DNA from: Chloroflexota bacterium
Lineage (GTDB): Bacteria; Chloroflexota; UBA11872; VXNJ01
Reading direction: 5' to 3'
DNA length: 40,730 nt
Assembly: GCA_030744875.1 (NCBI GenBank)
Contig: JASLPR010000078.1
Span: forward strand, 1-40,730
Positions within the stretch are counted from its first letter, which is position 1. Every line of letters begins with the position of its first letter. The notes below the pieces were generated by a model. The model saw nothing but the letters and a program-made list of their open reading frames with translations, searched no databases and was not told the DNA's origin. Positions 4,664 to 40,058 of the stretch are shown here, one piece after another. The translations under genes were made by a program, and so were the position numbers.

Positions 4664-7072
4664 CTAGGCCCGCTTCGCGCTGCCGGTCGGCTGCGCCGTG
4701 AACATCGCCCGCACTTCCCCCACCGTCGTCGCGTCGTTTGGTGACTTGTCCGCCCGGGGCATCCCGAGCACTCGCGGGAACCGGAGTGCATAGCCCGGCT
4801 CGTCCCCGCTCCGCCCGGCAGTATGATTGGGACTCCGCGTCAACTCGTCGGCCAGCACCTCGACCACGTACCGCGGGTCCACCCAGACGTCGGGCTCGAT
4901 TCCGCTGTCCAGTTCCGGCGGCGCGCCATCGCGGACATCGTTGTCCAACAGGTGGCGCATCGCCACCCACTCCAGGTCCGAAAGCCCGGTGCCGACCCGC
5001 GCGATCGTCTTCAATCGCGCCTCCTCCTCGTCCCAGACCGCCGTCAGCAGTGCGCCGATCCCCCAGGCCGCCCGCTTGCCCTGGCCGCGCCAATAGCCCA
5101 CCACCGCGCAGTCCAGCGTATCGCTCAATTCCACCCGGTAGCTGCGCTTCAGCTTGATCCAGTTGAAGTTCCGCTTGCCCGCCTGGTAGCTGGCGTCCAG
5201 CCGCTTGGCCAGGATTCCCTCCAGGCCGGCCTCCACTTCGCTGGAGAAGTAGGTATCGATCTCCTTCGGGTCCTCGGTCACCAGGTTCTCCGTCACCCCG
5301 ATGGCTTCGTTGGGCTCGATCAGCGCCAGCAGCCGGTCGCGGCGCTCCAAGTAGGAAAGCCCGGTCAGGTCCTCACCTGAAGCGCAGAGCAGATCGAAGG
5401 CCAGCAGGGTCAGCGGAACGTCGTCGGCCATCTCCGCGATGTTGTGCTTGCGGCGTCGCGACACCGTCACCTGGAACGGCAGGAAATCGCGCGTGTCCGA
5501 GTCATAGGCCATCGCCTCGCCCTCCAAGATCACCCGGTCCTCTTTGAGCTGCGTCCGCATTGCCTCGGCGACCTCGGGAAACATCCCGGTCATGTCCTCC
5601 AGGTTCCGTGAGTAGATATGCACCTCGTCGCCGTCGCGATGGATCTGGATGCGGAAGCCGTCGTACTTCGGCTCGATCCCGCAGCGGCCAATCTTTTCGA
5701 CGATCTCCGCTCCTGAAGACAGCCGCGCCGCCTGGGCCATCCGCACCGGATTGCCGACTTCCACCTGGATTCCCGCCAGACCGTCCAGCCGGCCCGCCAG
5801 GTAGCGCCCGGCCACCAGGCCCAGGTCGCTGACCATGTTGTAGGCGCGCTCGATCTCGGCCCGCTCCGACTTGTCGCCGGCCCCAGCGAACGACAGCGCG
5901 TCCAGGATCGTCGGGTCGCCGACTCCCAGCCGCAACCGCTCGATCGGGATGCGGGCAAAGTACCGGTTTTCCAGCGAGCCCAGCGACCGCATGACCTCGG
6001 CCACCTTCTCCACCTTGCGTTCCACCGAGCCCTCGCCGGAGATCGCCGCGATCGTCTCCAGCGACGCAAAGATTTCCGCCACCGACCGCGATCCCGCCGT
6101 GAATTTGGCGAACGACTCCGCCACCAGGCCGAAGTCGCCCATTTCCTTGAACCGCTCCTCCACTTCCACCGGCCCGACGTCAAACGCCGCCGCGATCGCG
6201 CTCACCAGCATCTTCTCGCCGACCCCGAACTCCACCGGCAGGAACGTCGGCGCCACCCGGCCCTGCAGCAGGTAGGCGATGCGTCCGCCGTCCTCAGGGT
6301 CCAAATTGCGCAATAGCTCCGCCAGGTAAGCCGCCATGGCTATCCGCCCGCTCACCGCTTCCACCCGCTCGAAGGCGCGGGCCAGCTCGTAGAACGAGCC
6401 ATCGGCCGGCACCCGGCGTCCGCGCTGGTCCCAGATGCCGGTCAGCGCGGCGATGATATCCCCGAAGTGCGTATACGGCGTGTACGCGATCCCTTCCTTC
6501 TTGCAGTACCGCGCCAGCGCCTTCTTTTCCTTGGCGAACAGCACGTCGGCAACCCCCGCCGCCGGCTTGTCCGAGTCGGCGTCGCCGGCGTAGCCCACCA
6601 CCTCGAACTCCGCCTGCGCCCGCTTCAGCAGCACGTCCTTGGCCACCCCGAACCGGCCGTCGCCATCGCCCTCATGCGGGAAGCCCAGCCGGATACGCCC
6701 GTCCACGAACTCCAGCGTGTTGCAGGTCACCGGGACTTCCCCCAGCCCCGCCCGGTGCAGCAGGCGCTCGATGTAGAAATCGAACCCGTCACTGACGATT
6801 TCGAACTCGATCCCGGCCGCCCGGCAATAGCGGCAGAACTCGCCGAAGAACGGGTCCAGTTCGAAGCCGTCCACGAACTCCACCAGCTCGTCCTCGCTGA
6901 TGTTCATCAGCACGAACTGCGCCTCGGCGCGTTCGCGGGTGGTGATTTCGCCGGCCACCCAGCGATCGTCGATTTCCTTCACTTCGTCGTCGCCGAAGTG
7001 CACCAGCACCTGGTGACCCACGTCCTCGGTCACCACGGTCCCGTCGAAATCCAGCAGGAACTTGCGCCCCAC
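4664..7072 (-). CDS. HAD phosphatase - ATP-dependent DNA ligase fusion
   Basis: One uninterrupted 802-residue frame holds two complete enzymes. Residues 1 to about 220 are a SerB/MtnX-like HAD phosphatase: nucleophile and acid Asp8 and Asp10 in LDFDGTV, Ser94 in VSDGF, Lys145 in GVAKD, Asp164 and Asp168 in GYAGDADSD. From about 225 follows an archaeal-type (LigB) ATP-dependent DNA ligase: a helical DNA-binding domain to about 440, a nucleotidyltransferase domain with adenylation Lys469 in EPKYDGFR, then ILEGEAM, LLAFDLL and ILAKR...IKLKRSY motifs, and an OB domain to the end. Separate ligases of this kind are usually about 560 residues, so neither half is truncated. The GTG start directly follows the helicase TAG, indicating translational coupling. 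The phosphatase may clean 3'-phosphate ends before sealing, by analogy with HAD-type polynucleotide 3'-phosphatases; this is inference. Confidence 0.93.
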   Translation of the reverse strand: MGRKFLLDFDGTVVTEDVGHQVLVHFGDDEVKEIDDRWVAGEITTRERAEAQFVLMNISEDELVEFVDGFELDPFFGEFCRYCRAAGIEFEIVSDGFDFYIERLLHRAGLGEVPVTCNTLEFVDGRIRLGFPHEGDGDGRFGVAKDVLLKRAQAEFEVVGYAGDADSDKPAAGVADVLFAKEKKALARYCKKEGIAYTPYTHFGDIIAALTGIWDQRGRRVPADGSFYELARAFERVEAVSGRIAMAAYLAELLRNLDPEDGGRIAYLLQGRVAPTFLPVEFGVGEKMLVSAIAAAFDVGPVEVEERFKEMGDFGLVAESFAKFTAGSRSVAEIFASLETIAAISGEGSVERKVEKVAEVMRSLGSLENRYFARIPIERLRLGVGDPTILDALSFAGAGDKSERAEIERAYNMVSDLGLVAGRYLAGRLDGLAGIQVEVGNPVRMAQAARLSSGAEIVEKIGRCGIEPKYDGFRIQIHRDGDEVHIYSRNLEDMTGMFPEVAEAMRTQLKEDRVILEGEAMAYDSDTRDFLPFQVTVSRRRKHNIAEMADDVPLTLLAFDLLCASGEDLTGLSYLERRDRLLALIEPNEAIGVTENLVTEDPKEIDTYFSSEVEAGLEGILAKRLDASYQAGKRNFNWIKLKRSYRVELSDTLDCAVVGYWRGQGKRAAWGIGALLTAVWDEEEARLKTIARVGTGLSDLEWVAMRHLLDNDVRDGAPPELDSGIEPDVWVDPRYVVEVLADELTRSPNHTAGRSGDEPGYALRFPRVLGMPRADKSPNDATTVGEVRAMFTAQPTGSAKRA

Positions 7073-9256
7073 CTAGATGATGTCCAGGTTCGCGAACGCC
7101 ACGCTCAGCAGCTTCACGCCGGCCTCCGGAAACGCCACCTGCACCTCCTCACCACCGGGCCCCAGCTTGCCCGAGATCACCACCCCCACCCCGAACACCG
7201 GATGCCGCACCTTCTGGCCGTCGCGATAGGAGCGTTCCGTCGCCACCGTCGCCGCCTTCACCGCCGGGTCGGCCATCCCGGGGAAATCTGTCGCCGTCGT
7301 CACCACCGGCCGGTCCCGCTCCATGGCCTCCTCGGGGATGTCTTGCAGGAACCGCGACGGCACCCGCGACCGGCTCCCCCAGCCGCCGCGGAACTTCGCG
7401 TAGCTCAGGAACAGTCGGTCCTGGGCCCGGGTGATCCCGACGTAGGCCAGCCGCCGTTCCTCTTCCATCTGAGCCGGGTCGGCAAAGGAGCGCACGTGCG
7501 GGCAGAGTTCCTCCTCGAACCCGGTCACGAACACGTTCTTGAACTCCAGGCCCTTGGCTGCGTGCAGGGTGATCAGGGTCACCGCATCGGCCTCGGCCTT
7601 CAGTGCATCCACGTCCGAAATCAGCGCCACCTCCTGCAGGAAGGATGTCATCGCCTCTTCCGGCAGCAGGTCGGCGTACTTCGCCGACGCCCCGATCAAT
7701 TCGACCACATTGTCAATGCGTTCCTCGGCGTCCTCCGGGTCGGCCCGCAGGTAATCCTCGTAACCGGTTTCGCGGTAGATCTCCTGCAGCAGGCGCGGCA
7801 GCGGCATCTCGGCGGCGGCGGCGTCCAGTCGCAGGAACATCTCGCCCAGCGGCAGCAGAGCCTTCAGCGCCCTCCCCGCCAGCATCGGCGGCACCGGGTC
7901 GGGCGGCTCCGCCGCCAGCATCCGCAGCGCCTCGCCGGGGGCCATCGTCCGCTGCGCTGCCCACTCATCCAGCAGACCTAGCGTTTTCTCACCCAGCCCC
8001 CGGGCCGGCACATTCGCCACCCGGCCAAAGCTCACGCTGTCGCGCGGATTCGCCACGCAGCGCAGGTAGCCCAGCATGTCCTTCACCTCGCGCCGCCCGT
8101 AGAACTCCGTCGCGCCCACCAACTGGTACGGCAGCCCGGCCTTCACAAACGATTCCTCCAGCAGCCGCGACTGGGCGTTCGTCCGGTACATGACCGCGAA
8201 GTCACCGCGTCTGCCGCCCTCGCGGGCGATCAGGCCCTGCACTTCCTCCAGCACCCGCAGCGCTTCGTCCTCATCGTCGTAGGACTCCAGGACCCGCACC
8301 TTTTCGCCGCCGCTGCGCTCGGTCCACAGGCGCTTTTCCTTGCGACCCGGCAGCCGCTCCACCACGCCGTGGGCCGCGTCCAGGATCAGTTGCGTCGAGC
8401 GGTAGTTCTGCTCCAGCTTCACCACCCGGGCGTCCGGGTACTCGGTCTCGAAATCCATCAGGTTGCGGATATCGGCCCCGCGCCAGCCGTAGATACTCTG
8501 GTCGTCATCGCCCACCACCGCCAGGTTGCGCCGCGCCGCCGACAGTTCCCGCACCAGGACGTACTGGGCCCGGTTGGTGTCCTGGTACTCATCGACCATC
8601 ACGTGGCGGAAGCGATCCTGGTAGTAGGCCAGCACCTCGGCGTCTTCGCGGATGAGGCGCACAGCCGACACGATCAGGTCGCCGAAATCCTGCCCTTCGG
8701 CGCCGTTGAGGATTTGCTCGTAGCGGGCATAGATCTTGGCCACCATATCCTCGAAAAAGCCCTGGGCGTGTTCGGCGAACTGGTGATGGGTCATCAACTC
8801 GTCCTTGGCCCGCGAGATCGCGTTCCGCGCCCCGGCCGGCGACACCTGGCTGGCGGCGAGACCCAGATCCTTCATCGCGGTGCGCACCACCGCCGTCTGG
8901 TCGGTCCCGTCGAAGATGGTGAAGTTGCGGTTGATCCCGATCCGGTCCGAAAAGCGCCGCAGGATGCGCGCGCAGACCCCGTGAAAGGTCCCCAACTCCA
9001 TCCCCGCCCCGCGCTCCGACGAGAGCGCCGTCACCCGCGAGCGCATCTCATCGGCGGCCTTGTTGGTGAAGGTCACGGCCAGGATGTTCCACGGCGCCAC
9101 CGCGGCGGCATCGATCAGGTGGGCGATGCGGTGCGTCACCACCCGCGTCTTGCCCGACCCGGCCCCGGCCAGGATCAGCAGCGGCCCTTCCGCATGCTCG
9201 ACCGCCTCGACCTGGGAAGGGTTCAGTTCCGCCGTTTCCGGCGCCAGAGTCGTCAA
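7073..9256 (-). CDS. pcrA: UvrD/PcrA-type ATP-dependent DNA helicase
   Basis: A superfamily 1A 3'-5' helicase of 727 residues, the usual length for UvrD/PcrA. Visible motifs are the Q-motif LNPSQVEAVEH, Walker A GAGSGKTRV, motif Ia TFTNKAA, DEYQDTN (motif II), GDDDQSIYGWRGAD (motif III), QNYRS (motif IV), ITLHAAKGLEF (motif V) and YVGITRA (motif VI). A C-terminal region of about 60 residues resembles the PcrA tail that contacts RNA polymerase (GQKVRHPVFGVGVV). It acts in excision repair and in clearing replication or transcription blocks. The start is TTG 9256, downstream of a perfect TATAAT. Its stop abuts the start codon of the phosphatase-ligase fusion, making a two-gene repair operon. Confidence 0.96.
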   Translation of the reverse strand: MTTLAPETAELNPSQVEAVEHAEGPLLILAGAGSGKTRVVTHRIAHLIDAAAVAPWNILAVTFTNKAADEMRSRVTALSSERGAGMELGTFHGVCARILRRFSDRIGINRNFTIFDGTDQTAVVRTAMKDLGLAASQVSPAGARNAISRAKDELMTHHQFAEHAQGFFEDMVAKIYARYEQILNGAEGQDFGDLIVSAVRLIREDAEVLAYYQDRFRHVMVDEYQDTNRAQYVLVRELSAARRNLAVVGDDDQSIYGWRGADIRNLMDFETEYPDARVVKLEQNYRSTQLILDAAHGVVERLPGRKEKRLWTERSGGEKVRVLESYDDEDEALRVLEEVQGLIAREGGRRGDFAVMYRTNAQSRLLEESFVKAGLPYQLVGATEFYGRREVKDMLGYLRCVANPRDSVSFGRVANVPARGLGEKTLGLLDEWAAQRTMAPGEALRMLAAEPPDPVPPMLAGRALKALLPLGEMFLRLDAAAAEMPLPRLLQEIYRETGYEDYLRADPEDAEERIDNVVELIGASAKYADLLPEEAMTSFLQEVALISDVDALKAEADAVTLITLHAAKGLEFKNVFVTGFEEELCPHVRSFADPAQMEEERRLAYVGITRAQDRLFLSYAKFRGGWGSRSRVPSRFLQDIPEEAMERDRPVVTTATDFPGMADPAVKAATVATERSYRDGQKVRHPVFGVGVVISGKLGPGGEEVQVAFPEAGVKLLSVAFANLDII

Positions 9257-38163: not shown

Positions 38164-39912
38164 CTAGCCGGCCACCGCCTGCAGGCCCAGCCACTCCACC
38201 GTCGCGCCGTCGGGCACGCCCGATTCGCGATCCCAACCCCGGTTCTCGTAGTAGTCGCGGGTCTCGCTCAGCACCAGGTCCTCGGACAGCACCTGGTCCT
38301 TCATCGGCCCCATGGCCAGCTTCTGGTGCATCCGCCAGGGCAGCTTGTCGTCGGCCGCCGTGGCCCCTTCGCGCAGGTTAAACAGCCGCGTCATCGTGAT
38401 GCCGCGCTCGTACACGTCATCCAGTTCCGCCGCGGTCATATCCCAGCCGGTCGAAGCGTTCAGCAGCGCCAGCATCCGGTCATCGTCGTAGACCAGCATC
38501 TGGCAGATACCCAGGGTGTTCATCAGGCTCGGCCCCTTGTGGGCGGCCCCGCAGTGATCGCCACCCACCGGCGACACCGGGAACTGCTTGCGCATCCCTT
38601 CCATAGCCCGCGGGTCGTGCATGCCCAGGTCCAGGCCCTTCACTGCCACCACGTATTTCTCGCTGTCTTTTCCCAGCCGGCGCGCCGCCAGCGTCGCGCC
38701 CTCGGCCAACAGGTCGCCGATGCCTTCACGGCGAGCGATCATCTCGATCATCGCCAGCAGGTCCTCGCCGTTGCCCCAGCGCAGTTCCGCACCTTGCAGG
38801 TCGTCCGGCGTCAGCTTGCCCAGTTCCACCATTTCCATCGCCCAGGCGATTGCCGATCCGGTGGAGATGCTGTCGAGCGACAGGTAGTTCATCATCTCGC
38901 AGGCCTTGCAGATGGTGATCATGTCCACGACGCCGCAATTGCTGCCGATGGCGCCGAACGACTCGTATTCCGGCCCGCCGTACTTGTCGTCCACAGTCAC
39001 GTTGGCGGTCTCGAACCGCACCCGCTTCTTGCAGCGCACCGAGCAGGCGAAGCAGCCGTCCATCCGGTTCACAACGGTCGCCTTCATGGCCTGGGCGTCG
39101 ACGTTCTCGGCGCCCTCCAGCATGCCGTCGCGGAAGTTGTGCGAGATCACATGGCCCTCGATCTGCTTCGACCGCACCCGCGCGCCCGTCCCCCACTCGT
39201 GCATGATGAAGTGTTCCTGCCCCTCGCCGAACGTCGTCGGCACCCAGCGAGTCGTCTCGCGGATCGGCTCGATGTCCACCGGGGTCGTCCGGTTGCTGCC
39301 GCGCACGGCGATGGCCTTCAGTTTTTTCGAGCCCATCACCGCGCCCATCCCGCAGCGCCCGGCGAACTCGTTCAGGTCGTTGCAGACGCAGGCGATCTTC
39401 ACCAGGTTCTCCCCGGCGATGCCGGTCTGCGCCACCCTCACGTCCTCGCCCAGTTCTTCCTGGATCGCCTCCTGGACATCACCGGTGATCTTGCCCCAGA
39501 GATGGCCGGCGTCGCGGATCTCCACCTGGAGGTCATCGATCCACAGGTAGACCGGACTCTTGGCCGCGCCCTGCACCACAATCGCGTCCCAGCCGGCGTC
39601 CTTTAGCTCCGCGTTCCAGAAGCCCCCGGCCTCGCCTTCGCCGTAGAAGCCGGTCAGCGGCGACTTCGCGCCCATGCTGTGGCGGGCGTTGCCCGGCAAT
39701 TGCACGCCGGTGATCGGCCCCATGGCGAATACCAGGCGGTTGTCCGAGCCCAGCGGGTCGGTCTCCGGCGGCACCTCGGTCAACAGGTAGTGGGCGATGA
39801 TCGCGCGACCGCCCGGGTACTTGCGGTAGAACGCGTCGCCCGGCTCTTCGGTCCAGGTCTTCCCCTCGATCAGGTCCACCCGCAGTATTCGTCCGTTGAT
39901 CGATCCGGCCAT
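38164..39912 (-). CDS. Aldehyde ferredoxin oxidoreductase (tungsten pterin)
   Basis: A 582-residue AOR-family enzyme that oxidises aldehydes to acids with ferredoxin, or aryl- or acyl-type substrates in related members. The N-terminal domain has SINGRILRVDL and KYPGGRAIIAHYL. The 4Fe-4S cysteines are Cys287, Cys290, Cys294 (CFACSVRC) and Cys470 (NTLGIC), matching the C-x2-C-x3-C...C spacing of archaeal AOR. The pterin site shows GGPEYESFG and KGLDLGMHDPRA. ATG 39912 gives the family N-terminus; an upstream extension is open but not conserved-looking. A paralog lies immediately upstream on the same strand (146-base gap). Confidence 0.93.
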   Translation of the reverse strand: MAGSINGRILRVDLIEGKTWTEEPGDAFYRKYPGGRAIIAHYLLTEVPPETDPLGSDNRLVFAMGPITGVQLPGNARHSMGAKSPLTGFYGEGEAGGFWNAELKDAGWDAIVVQGAAKSPVYLWIDDLQVEIRDAGHLWGKITGDVQEAIQEELGEDVRVAQTGIAGENLVKIACVCNDLNEFAGRCGMGAVMGSKKLKAIAVRGSNRTTPVDIEPIRETTRWVPTTFGEGQEHFIMHEWGTGARVRSKQIEGHVISHNFRDGMLEGAENVDAQAMKATVVNRMDGCFACSVRCKKRVRFETANVTVDDKYGGPEYESFGAIGSNCGVVDMITICKACEMMNYLSLDSISTGSAIAWAMEMVELGKLTPDDLQGAELRWGNGEDLLAMIEMIARREGIGDLLAEGATLAARRLGKDSEKYVVAVKGLDLGMHDPRAMEGMRKQFPVSPVGGDHCGAAHKGPSLMNTLGICQMLVYDDDRMLALLNASTGWDMTAAELDDVYERGITMTRLFNLREGATAADDKLPWRMHQKLAMGPMKDQVLSEDLVLSETRDYYENRGWDRESGVPDGATVEWLGLQAVAG

Positions 39913-40058
39913 AGCGCGCCCTGCTCTCTGTCGGTTGGGGCCGCGGCCAGACCGCACTCCCCGGTGCTGCTCCGGTGTGCTCGTCGAAGTCAGCCATTCT
40001 CACGCAAGCGGCCCGCCCGGTCCAATCAGGGGGATTCGGTTGTCCGAGGGGTTGGCGC

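Follow-up and report, generated by a model that had tools for sequence, protein, structure and literature searches.

The window, the whole stretch of 40,730 nucleotides from a Chloroflexota bacterium that was analysed here, harbors an 802-residue open reading frame (ORF) with a GTG start that encodes a HAD phosphatase and a DNA ligase in a single frame (Table 1). Pfam matches cover the phosphatase (HAD, residues 6-172, 2e-13) and the ligase (DNA_ligase_A_N, 226-394, 2e-32; A_M, 448-642, 4e-52; A_C, 671-776, 6e-15). The HAD residues D8, D10, S94, K145, D164 and D168 and the ligase lysine K469 (KYDGFR) are all present, and the ligase motifs EGEA, FDLL, EGILAKR and WIKLKR are likewise intact. A preliminary description, made from the sequence alone, had read the locus as a full phosphatase joined to a full ligase with all of these residues, and the Pfam matches and residue check bear this out on the minus strand. 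It had also placed the fusion start directly after the helicase stop codon; the pcrA TAG indeed abuts the fusion GTG with zero spacing. The proposed operon with a PcrA-type helicase holds as a tight gene row, and the order pcrA-HAD-lig is conserved in the order to which the window belongs, and the helicase falls short of the equivalog cut-off of the PcrA model (793 against 911 bits).

Table 1. Coordinates of the fusion ORF, its parts and neighboring gene in the window, and of related gene rows in other genomes
Feature	Position	Strand	Basis
HAD phosphatase-DNA ligase fusion ORF	4664..7072	minus	ORF translation, Pfam and family models
HAD-IB phosphatase domain, residues 1-212, C1 helical cap	6437..7072	minus	Pfam, alignment, AlphaFold model, Foldseek
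Linker, residues 213-225 (13 residues), no stop codon	6398..6436	minus	frame comparison with relatives
ATP-dependent DNA ligase (DBD-NTase-OB), archaeal/eukaryal Lig1 type, residues 226-802	4664..6397	minus	Pfam, models, tree
K469 codon (adenylated lysine, motif KYDGFR)	5666..5668	minus	residue check
pcrA (UvrD/PcrA helicase with tudor domain), upstream gene	7073..9256	minus	Pfam and models
pcrA-HAD-polX row, genome G054 (family f7)	L165:1417-6042
pcrA-HAD-polX row, genome G042 (family f7)	L128:385-3717

In the full-length AlphaFold model of the fusion, the ligase is predicted with confidence above 90 and the HAD below 50, with few alignment rows covering the HAD. The PADLOC models gave no match to the fusion and met PcrA just generically, through entries for UvrD-type helicases; a reading of the locus as a defence system was rejected. 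Elsewhere in the window, uvrB (529-2592) lies close to the ligase operon, and an aldehyde ferredoxin oxidoreductase is encoded at 38164-39957 on the minus strand.

Type of the ligase and distribution of LigA

The ligase has a complete and intact order of DBD, NTase with the KxDG lysine, and OB. It scores 375 bits against dnl1 (TIGR00574, archaeal/eukaryal Lig1; superfamily cut-off 217.8) and 264.9 bits against the bacterial LigB model PRK03180, short of the equivalog cut-off of 641. The best solved relative is 2hiv_A, a ligase of Sulfolobus solfataricus. In a ligase tree that includes only two archaeal sequences, the window ligase falls within a bacterial Lig1-type clade of 58 rows (support 100/99) beside archaeal 2hiv, and is split from the LigB-like ligases of Chloroflexota with support of 100/100. 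On these scores and this tree the enzyme is assigned to the archaeal/eukaryal Lig1 type, not to the bacterial LigB family; the earlier label of a LigB-type enzyme was right as to a complete ATP-dependent ligase, but not as to the family. Like the archaeal/eukaryal Lig1 enzymes (TIGR00574 dnl1; 2hiv, 2cfm), which give the best score of the ligase models and solved ligases, it has the full-length DBD-NTase-OB arrangement with all motifs; unlike them, it is bacterial, is encoded beside pcrA and carries an N-terminal HAD domain.

LigA is missing from the window's genome and nearly throughout its order. The adenylation domain of LigA was not found in the window's own genome or in the genomes of families f1 and f2 of the order, with the exception of G001. 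A search of the genomes of the class for the LigA OB domain agrees with this result, and six of the most complete genomes without LigA gave no match to the full LigA model. Among 350 Chloroflexota genomes of at least 85% completeness, LigA is present in 307 and absent in 43. A Lig1-type ligase, scored as a match to the window ligase at E<=1e-85, occurs in 37 of the 43 LigA-less genomes and in 33 of the 307 with LigA, as counted from the listed rows (Fisher p = 2e-24, a value inflated by kinship). Exactly one ATP-ligase domain was found in 13 of 14 LigA-less genomes tested, including the window's own. On the ligase tree, the window ligase sits in a clade of 19 rows, 17 of them from LigA-less genomes, and the LigA-less label requires at least 7 changes over the tree. 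The same pairing extends beyond the phylum; LigA is missing from 45 of the 46 genomes behind loci with a Lig1-type ligase, one of the 45 being a closed Dependentiae genome (AP025250). The sole genome of the 46 with LigA is that of L085 (MGOY01000043, Clostridiales GWF2_38_85), whose ligase groups with those of Dependentiae, either by transfer or because the contig is mis-binned. Chloroflexota genome G294 and a further record, L027 (JADDPP010000443, titled Rubrobacter sp. LC5_2), have identical ligases, and the organism name of L027 looks wrong.

LigA could in principle be present and merely missing from the assemblies, with the Lig1-type ligase serving as an accessory repair enzyme, as in other bacteria. 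The window's own genome is 89% complete, most of the genomes compared are metagenome-assembled, and the 33 LigA-bearing Chloroflexota hold the same type of ligase. However, the absence is consistent over whole families, two different LigA domains concur, and a second ATP ligase to share the load was not found. LigA-less genomes include G006, a single contig, G218, a single contig at 98% completeness, and G176, a finished genome of two contigs that apparently matches cultured Thermobaculum terrenum; incompleteness is therefore a poor explanation. A finished two-chromosome genome of 3.1 Mb has been published for 'Thermobaculum terrenum' YNP1 (PMC3035366). Loss of LigA from the assemblies is accordingly a highly improbable account.

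The gene order around pcrA points in the same direction. In LigA-bearing G056, pcrA and ligA overlap by 4 nt, and in G001 ligA and pcrA are neighbors; the LigA domains were confirmed in both. In G030 and G038 the Lig1-type gene directly follows pcrA, and both genomes also keep LigA elsewhere. Since relatives have pcrA-ligA where the window's lineage has pcrA-lig or pcrA-HAD-lig, the ATP ligase appears to occupy the place of ligA beside pcrA.

Some genomes do not fit a simple exchange. G001, a member of the window's own family, encodes a full LigA convergent with pcrA (L115:7321-12266), but no ATP ligase and no HAD of the operon type; this state is ancestral, a reversal or the product of a mis-binned contig. 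In G013, G040, G175, G186, G209, G318 and G331 the searches found no LigA and no strong Lig1-type ligase; these are either incomplete assemblies or users of yet another ligase. Of these cases, G001, G013 and G040 count against replacement. So do the 33 Chloroflexota genomes with both ligases, in that the presence of a Lig1-type ligase is not by itself proof of a replicative role.

Origin of the fused frame

The fusion is a single-genome read-through and a lineage-specific curiosity. No second fused ORF was found in 61 genomes (the window's own and its relatives) and 75 collection loci, in which the genes of the relatives were called with a simple ORF caller. HAD and ligase are separate genes in every relative examined, mostly adjacent as pcrA-HAD-lig. 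Apparent fusions in G006, G021 and L022-L026 were rejected after an ORF check revealed matches that spanned two adjacent genes. As far as we found, a HAD-ligase fusion has not been reported in the literature. The preliminary description had allowed for a widespread fusion always next to PcrA; it proved to be confined to one genome, and the separation of the halves in relatives is what that description itself had named as evidence against its proposal.

The genes of the relatives indicate how the frame could have arisen. Across the order, the gap from HAD stop to ligase start is 1 to 14 nt where starts are clear, and in G006, G021 and G019 the HAD stop is in the ligase frame, 3-6 nt ahead of the ligase start, such that loss of one stop would join both genes. 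The window lacks the HAD stop, and GGC stands in place of the ATG of the ligase; the nearest in-frame alternative start is GTG-221, from which some free ligase could still be made. The arrangement varies within the window's family; in G003 and G004 the HAD is located elsewhere in the genome, and in G003 pcrA is followed by the ligase gene after a gap of 203 nt that contains no recognisable HAD remnant.

An error of sequencing or of metagenome assembly, with a true state of two overlapping or adjacent genes as in the relatives, would also explain why the fusion is known from one genome only, and one 1-nt deletion in codons ~200-209 is enough to end the frame at codon 209 and leave GTG-221 to start the ligase. 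Against this, the C-terminus of the window HAD, IIAALTGIWDQRG, appears to resemble the end of the G002 HAD, VSTVLHAKWFDEGI, in the fused frame. The likeness to this nearest HAD, which ends in VLHAKWFDEGI followed by its stop, extends in that frame through W214-D215. In addition, simulated insertions never split the ORF before the ligase core, and nearly all the deletions that do so lie ahead of codon 209. Because the similarity to the G002 HAD holds in the fused frame and the ligase ATG itself is replaced, an error is unlikely, and we give this explanation only a slim chance.

The HAD phosphatase and its neighbors

An alignment of ten HADs shows no variation in the catalytic residues. Modelled alone with AlphaFold, the window HAD has a pLDDT of 93 and a helical cap that separates motif I from motif II, and its top Foldseek matches are MtnX (TM 0.88), SerB (phosphoserine phosphatase) and, more weakly, cytosolic 5'-nucleotidase III. 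The cut-offs of TIGR01489 (83.5 vs 81.55 bits) and TIGR01488 (60.8 vs 45 bits) are exceeded, whereas the MtnX equivalog cut-offs are not reached (79.1 vs 303.2 and 96.9 vs 292 bits). There is no PNKP entry among the 50 Foldseek matches listed and no Pfam match to PNK3P. By sequence and predicted fold, the domain is placed in the C1-capped MtnX/SerB group and not in the group of PNKP 3'-phosphatases, to which the preliminary description had likened it. PNKP and T4 Pnkp belong to the HAD superfamily in the broad sense, but the window HAD differs from them in its capped MtnX-type fold, the missing PNK3P match and the lack of a kinase partner. With the HAD-IB phosphatases MtnX and SerB (2fea, 1f5s) it shares the fold, the C1 cap and all catalytic motifs, while differing in its scores below the MtnX cut-offs, the lack of a methionine-salvage marker and its DNA-repair neighbors. 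Net charge was discarded as a test of DNA binding; the HAD is acidic (-19, pI 4.6), but so is the ligase itself (-25, pI 4.9), and the measure does not discriminate.

This HAD usually adjoins pcrA, with a gene for a DNA-repair enzyme next in the row. Family f7 has it between pcrA and polX, which encodes a PolX with a PHP domain, in overlapping genes. Ligases of the same type as the window ligase lack a HAD neighbor in f3, f4, f20, f23, f59 and f66, as in most genomes with a Lig1-type ligase, and f3 genomes have pcrA-lig with no HAD. More distant HADs of the group adjoin pyrG (f24), peptide deformylase (f12) and ubiD (G050), which suggests varied small-molecule roles and decides nothing for the window HAD. 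In L166 and L168 (f24) a distant HAD is directly upstream of CTP synthase, a hint of a nucleotide-type substrate. Family f2 lacks an ATG, GTG or TTG in the HAD frame ahead of the first catalytic motif (L008:850-860, L099:356-366, L023 near 7984); the pcrA stop reads CTGA there, and translation of the HAD apparently begins at a CTG that overlaps the TGA of pcrA.

What the phosphatase acts on may be weighed from these data. The best match by sequence and fold is the MtnX of B. subtilis, which would make the HAD the phosphatase of methionine salvage; a metabolite phosphatase joined by chance to a ligase was the alternative raised in the preliminary description. Acireductone dioxygenase (PF03079), the next enzyme of the methionine salvage pathway, gave no match above its cut-off among 41 genomes of the class, although the control exceeded the cut-off in just 2 of 14 genomes and the sensitivity is thus imperfect. 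Moreover, the adjoining genes are repair genes, not mtn. MtnX function is unlikely because the scores lie far below the equivalog cut-offs and acireductone dioxygenase is without a match in the class, and we consider it very improbable.

The preliminary description favored a one-polypeptide machine for end healing and sealing, in which the HAD would strip 3'-phosphates or other blocking phosphates and hand a 3'-OH to the ligase on a substrate opened by PcrA. The invariant catalytic residues are consistent with this, as is the pairing of the HAD after pcrA with two different DNA-end enzymes, the ligase in f1 and f2 and PolX in f7, and a fusion would fix the proximity of the two activities. The C1 helical cap over the active site of an MtnX/SerB fold, the lack of PNKP-like matches, the many ligases of the same type without a HAD neighbor and a fusion known from one genome with the halves separate in all relatives argue against it, and the proposal seems unlikely. 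A broader version makes the HAD a new phosphatase of DNA ends or damaged nucleotides, partnered with the gap-filling or sealing enzyme that comes after PcrA in each case and here built into the sole replicative ligase; it is similarly doubtful. If it were true, the ligase that joins Okazaki fragments in this bacterium would have an end-cleaning domain of its own. The pcrA and repair-enzyme neighbors are the sole positive hint of a DNA-related substrate; with lig or polX as its partner behind pcrA, the HAD could act on DNA itself. A C1 cap closing over the active site is typical of HAD enzymes with small substrates. The HAD is more likely an active C1-capped phosphomonoesterase whose substrate would be a small phosphorylated compound; that the compound is nucleotide-like is a guess.

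Probable replacement of LigA

NAD-dependent LigA is described in reviews as universal and essential in bacteria, and inhibitors of LigA have been pursued as antibacterials on the ground of this essentiality. The ATP-dependent ligases of bacteria were considered in a 2016 review to be always additional to NAD-dependent ligases (PMC5052709). Replacement of the NAD-dependent ligase by an ATP-dependent ligase was noted in passing in 2015 for Babela massiliensis, a member of the Dependentiae (TM6) (PMC4378268), and the same state, with the NAD-dependent ligase gone and the ATP-dependent one kept, was found here in Dependentiae with a Lig1-type ligase. However, B. massiliensis is a reduced parasite of amoebae, whereas the Chloroflexota examined here have genomes of 2-3.5 Mb, with LigA state switching several separate times along the ligase tree and a takeover of the place beside pcrA. 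Fusions of RMMBL nuclease with LigB and bacterial LigB operons are also known, and their ligases are described as accessory (PMC10140301). Those systems likewise join an accessory enzyme, by fusion or in an operon, to a DBD-containing ATP ligase, but the partner is a nuclease and the helicase is Lhr, compared with a capped HAD phosphatase and PcrA here. A T. terrenum ligase is a leaf in a tree from 2009, and no comment on that leaf was found. No paper reporting replacement of LigA in Chloroflexota was found in the literature searched. As far as we found, the data extend the replacement noted for Babela to Dependentiae at large and, newly, to several families of Chloroflexota.

The most probable explanation is that a Lig1-type ligase has replaced LigA as the main, replicative ligase and that the HAD is a small-substrate phosphatase made together with it. 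An archaeal-type ligase would have been gained, would have coexisted with LigA, and LigA may then have been lost repeatedly. The ligase half of the fusion would be the chief DNA ligase of the cell and, in the searches made, its sole one, having taken over both the role of LigA and its place adjacent to pcrA, and should seal Okazaki fragments and repair nicks using ATP. The HAD gene was probably already located between pcrA and the ligase gene in the ancestor. Loss of the stop codon between HAD and ligase and of the ligase ATG in this lineage would then have produced one chain, a change that may be neutral or may merely fix the stoichiometry of the two activities.

Finally, the part of this locus that deserves specialist attention is the LigA-replacing ligase, not the fusion. 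It is a strong candidate for the role of replicative ligase in a bacterial lineage from which LigA has been lost. Genomes with both ligases and with either one alone are all available, and the exchange of a replicative ligase is therefore directly testable. An archaeal-type ligase appears to serve as the sole DNA ligase in many families of Chloroflexota, including one with a finished genome that matches a cultured thermophile.
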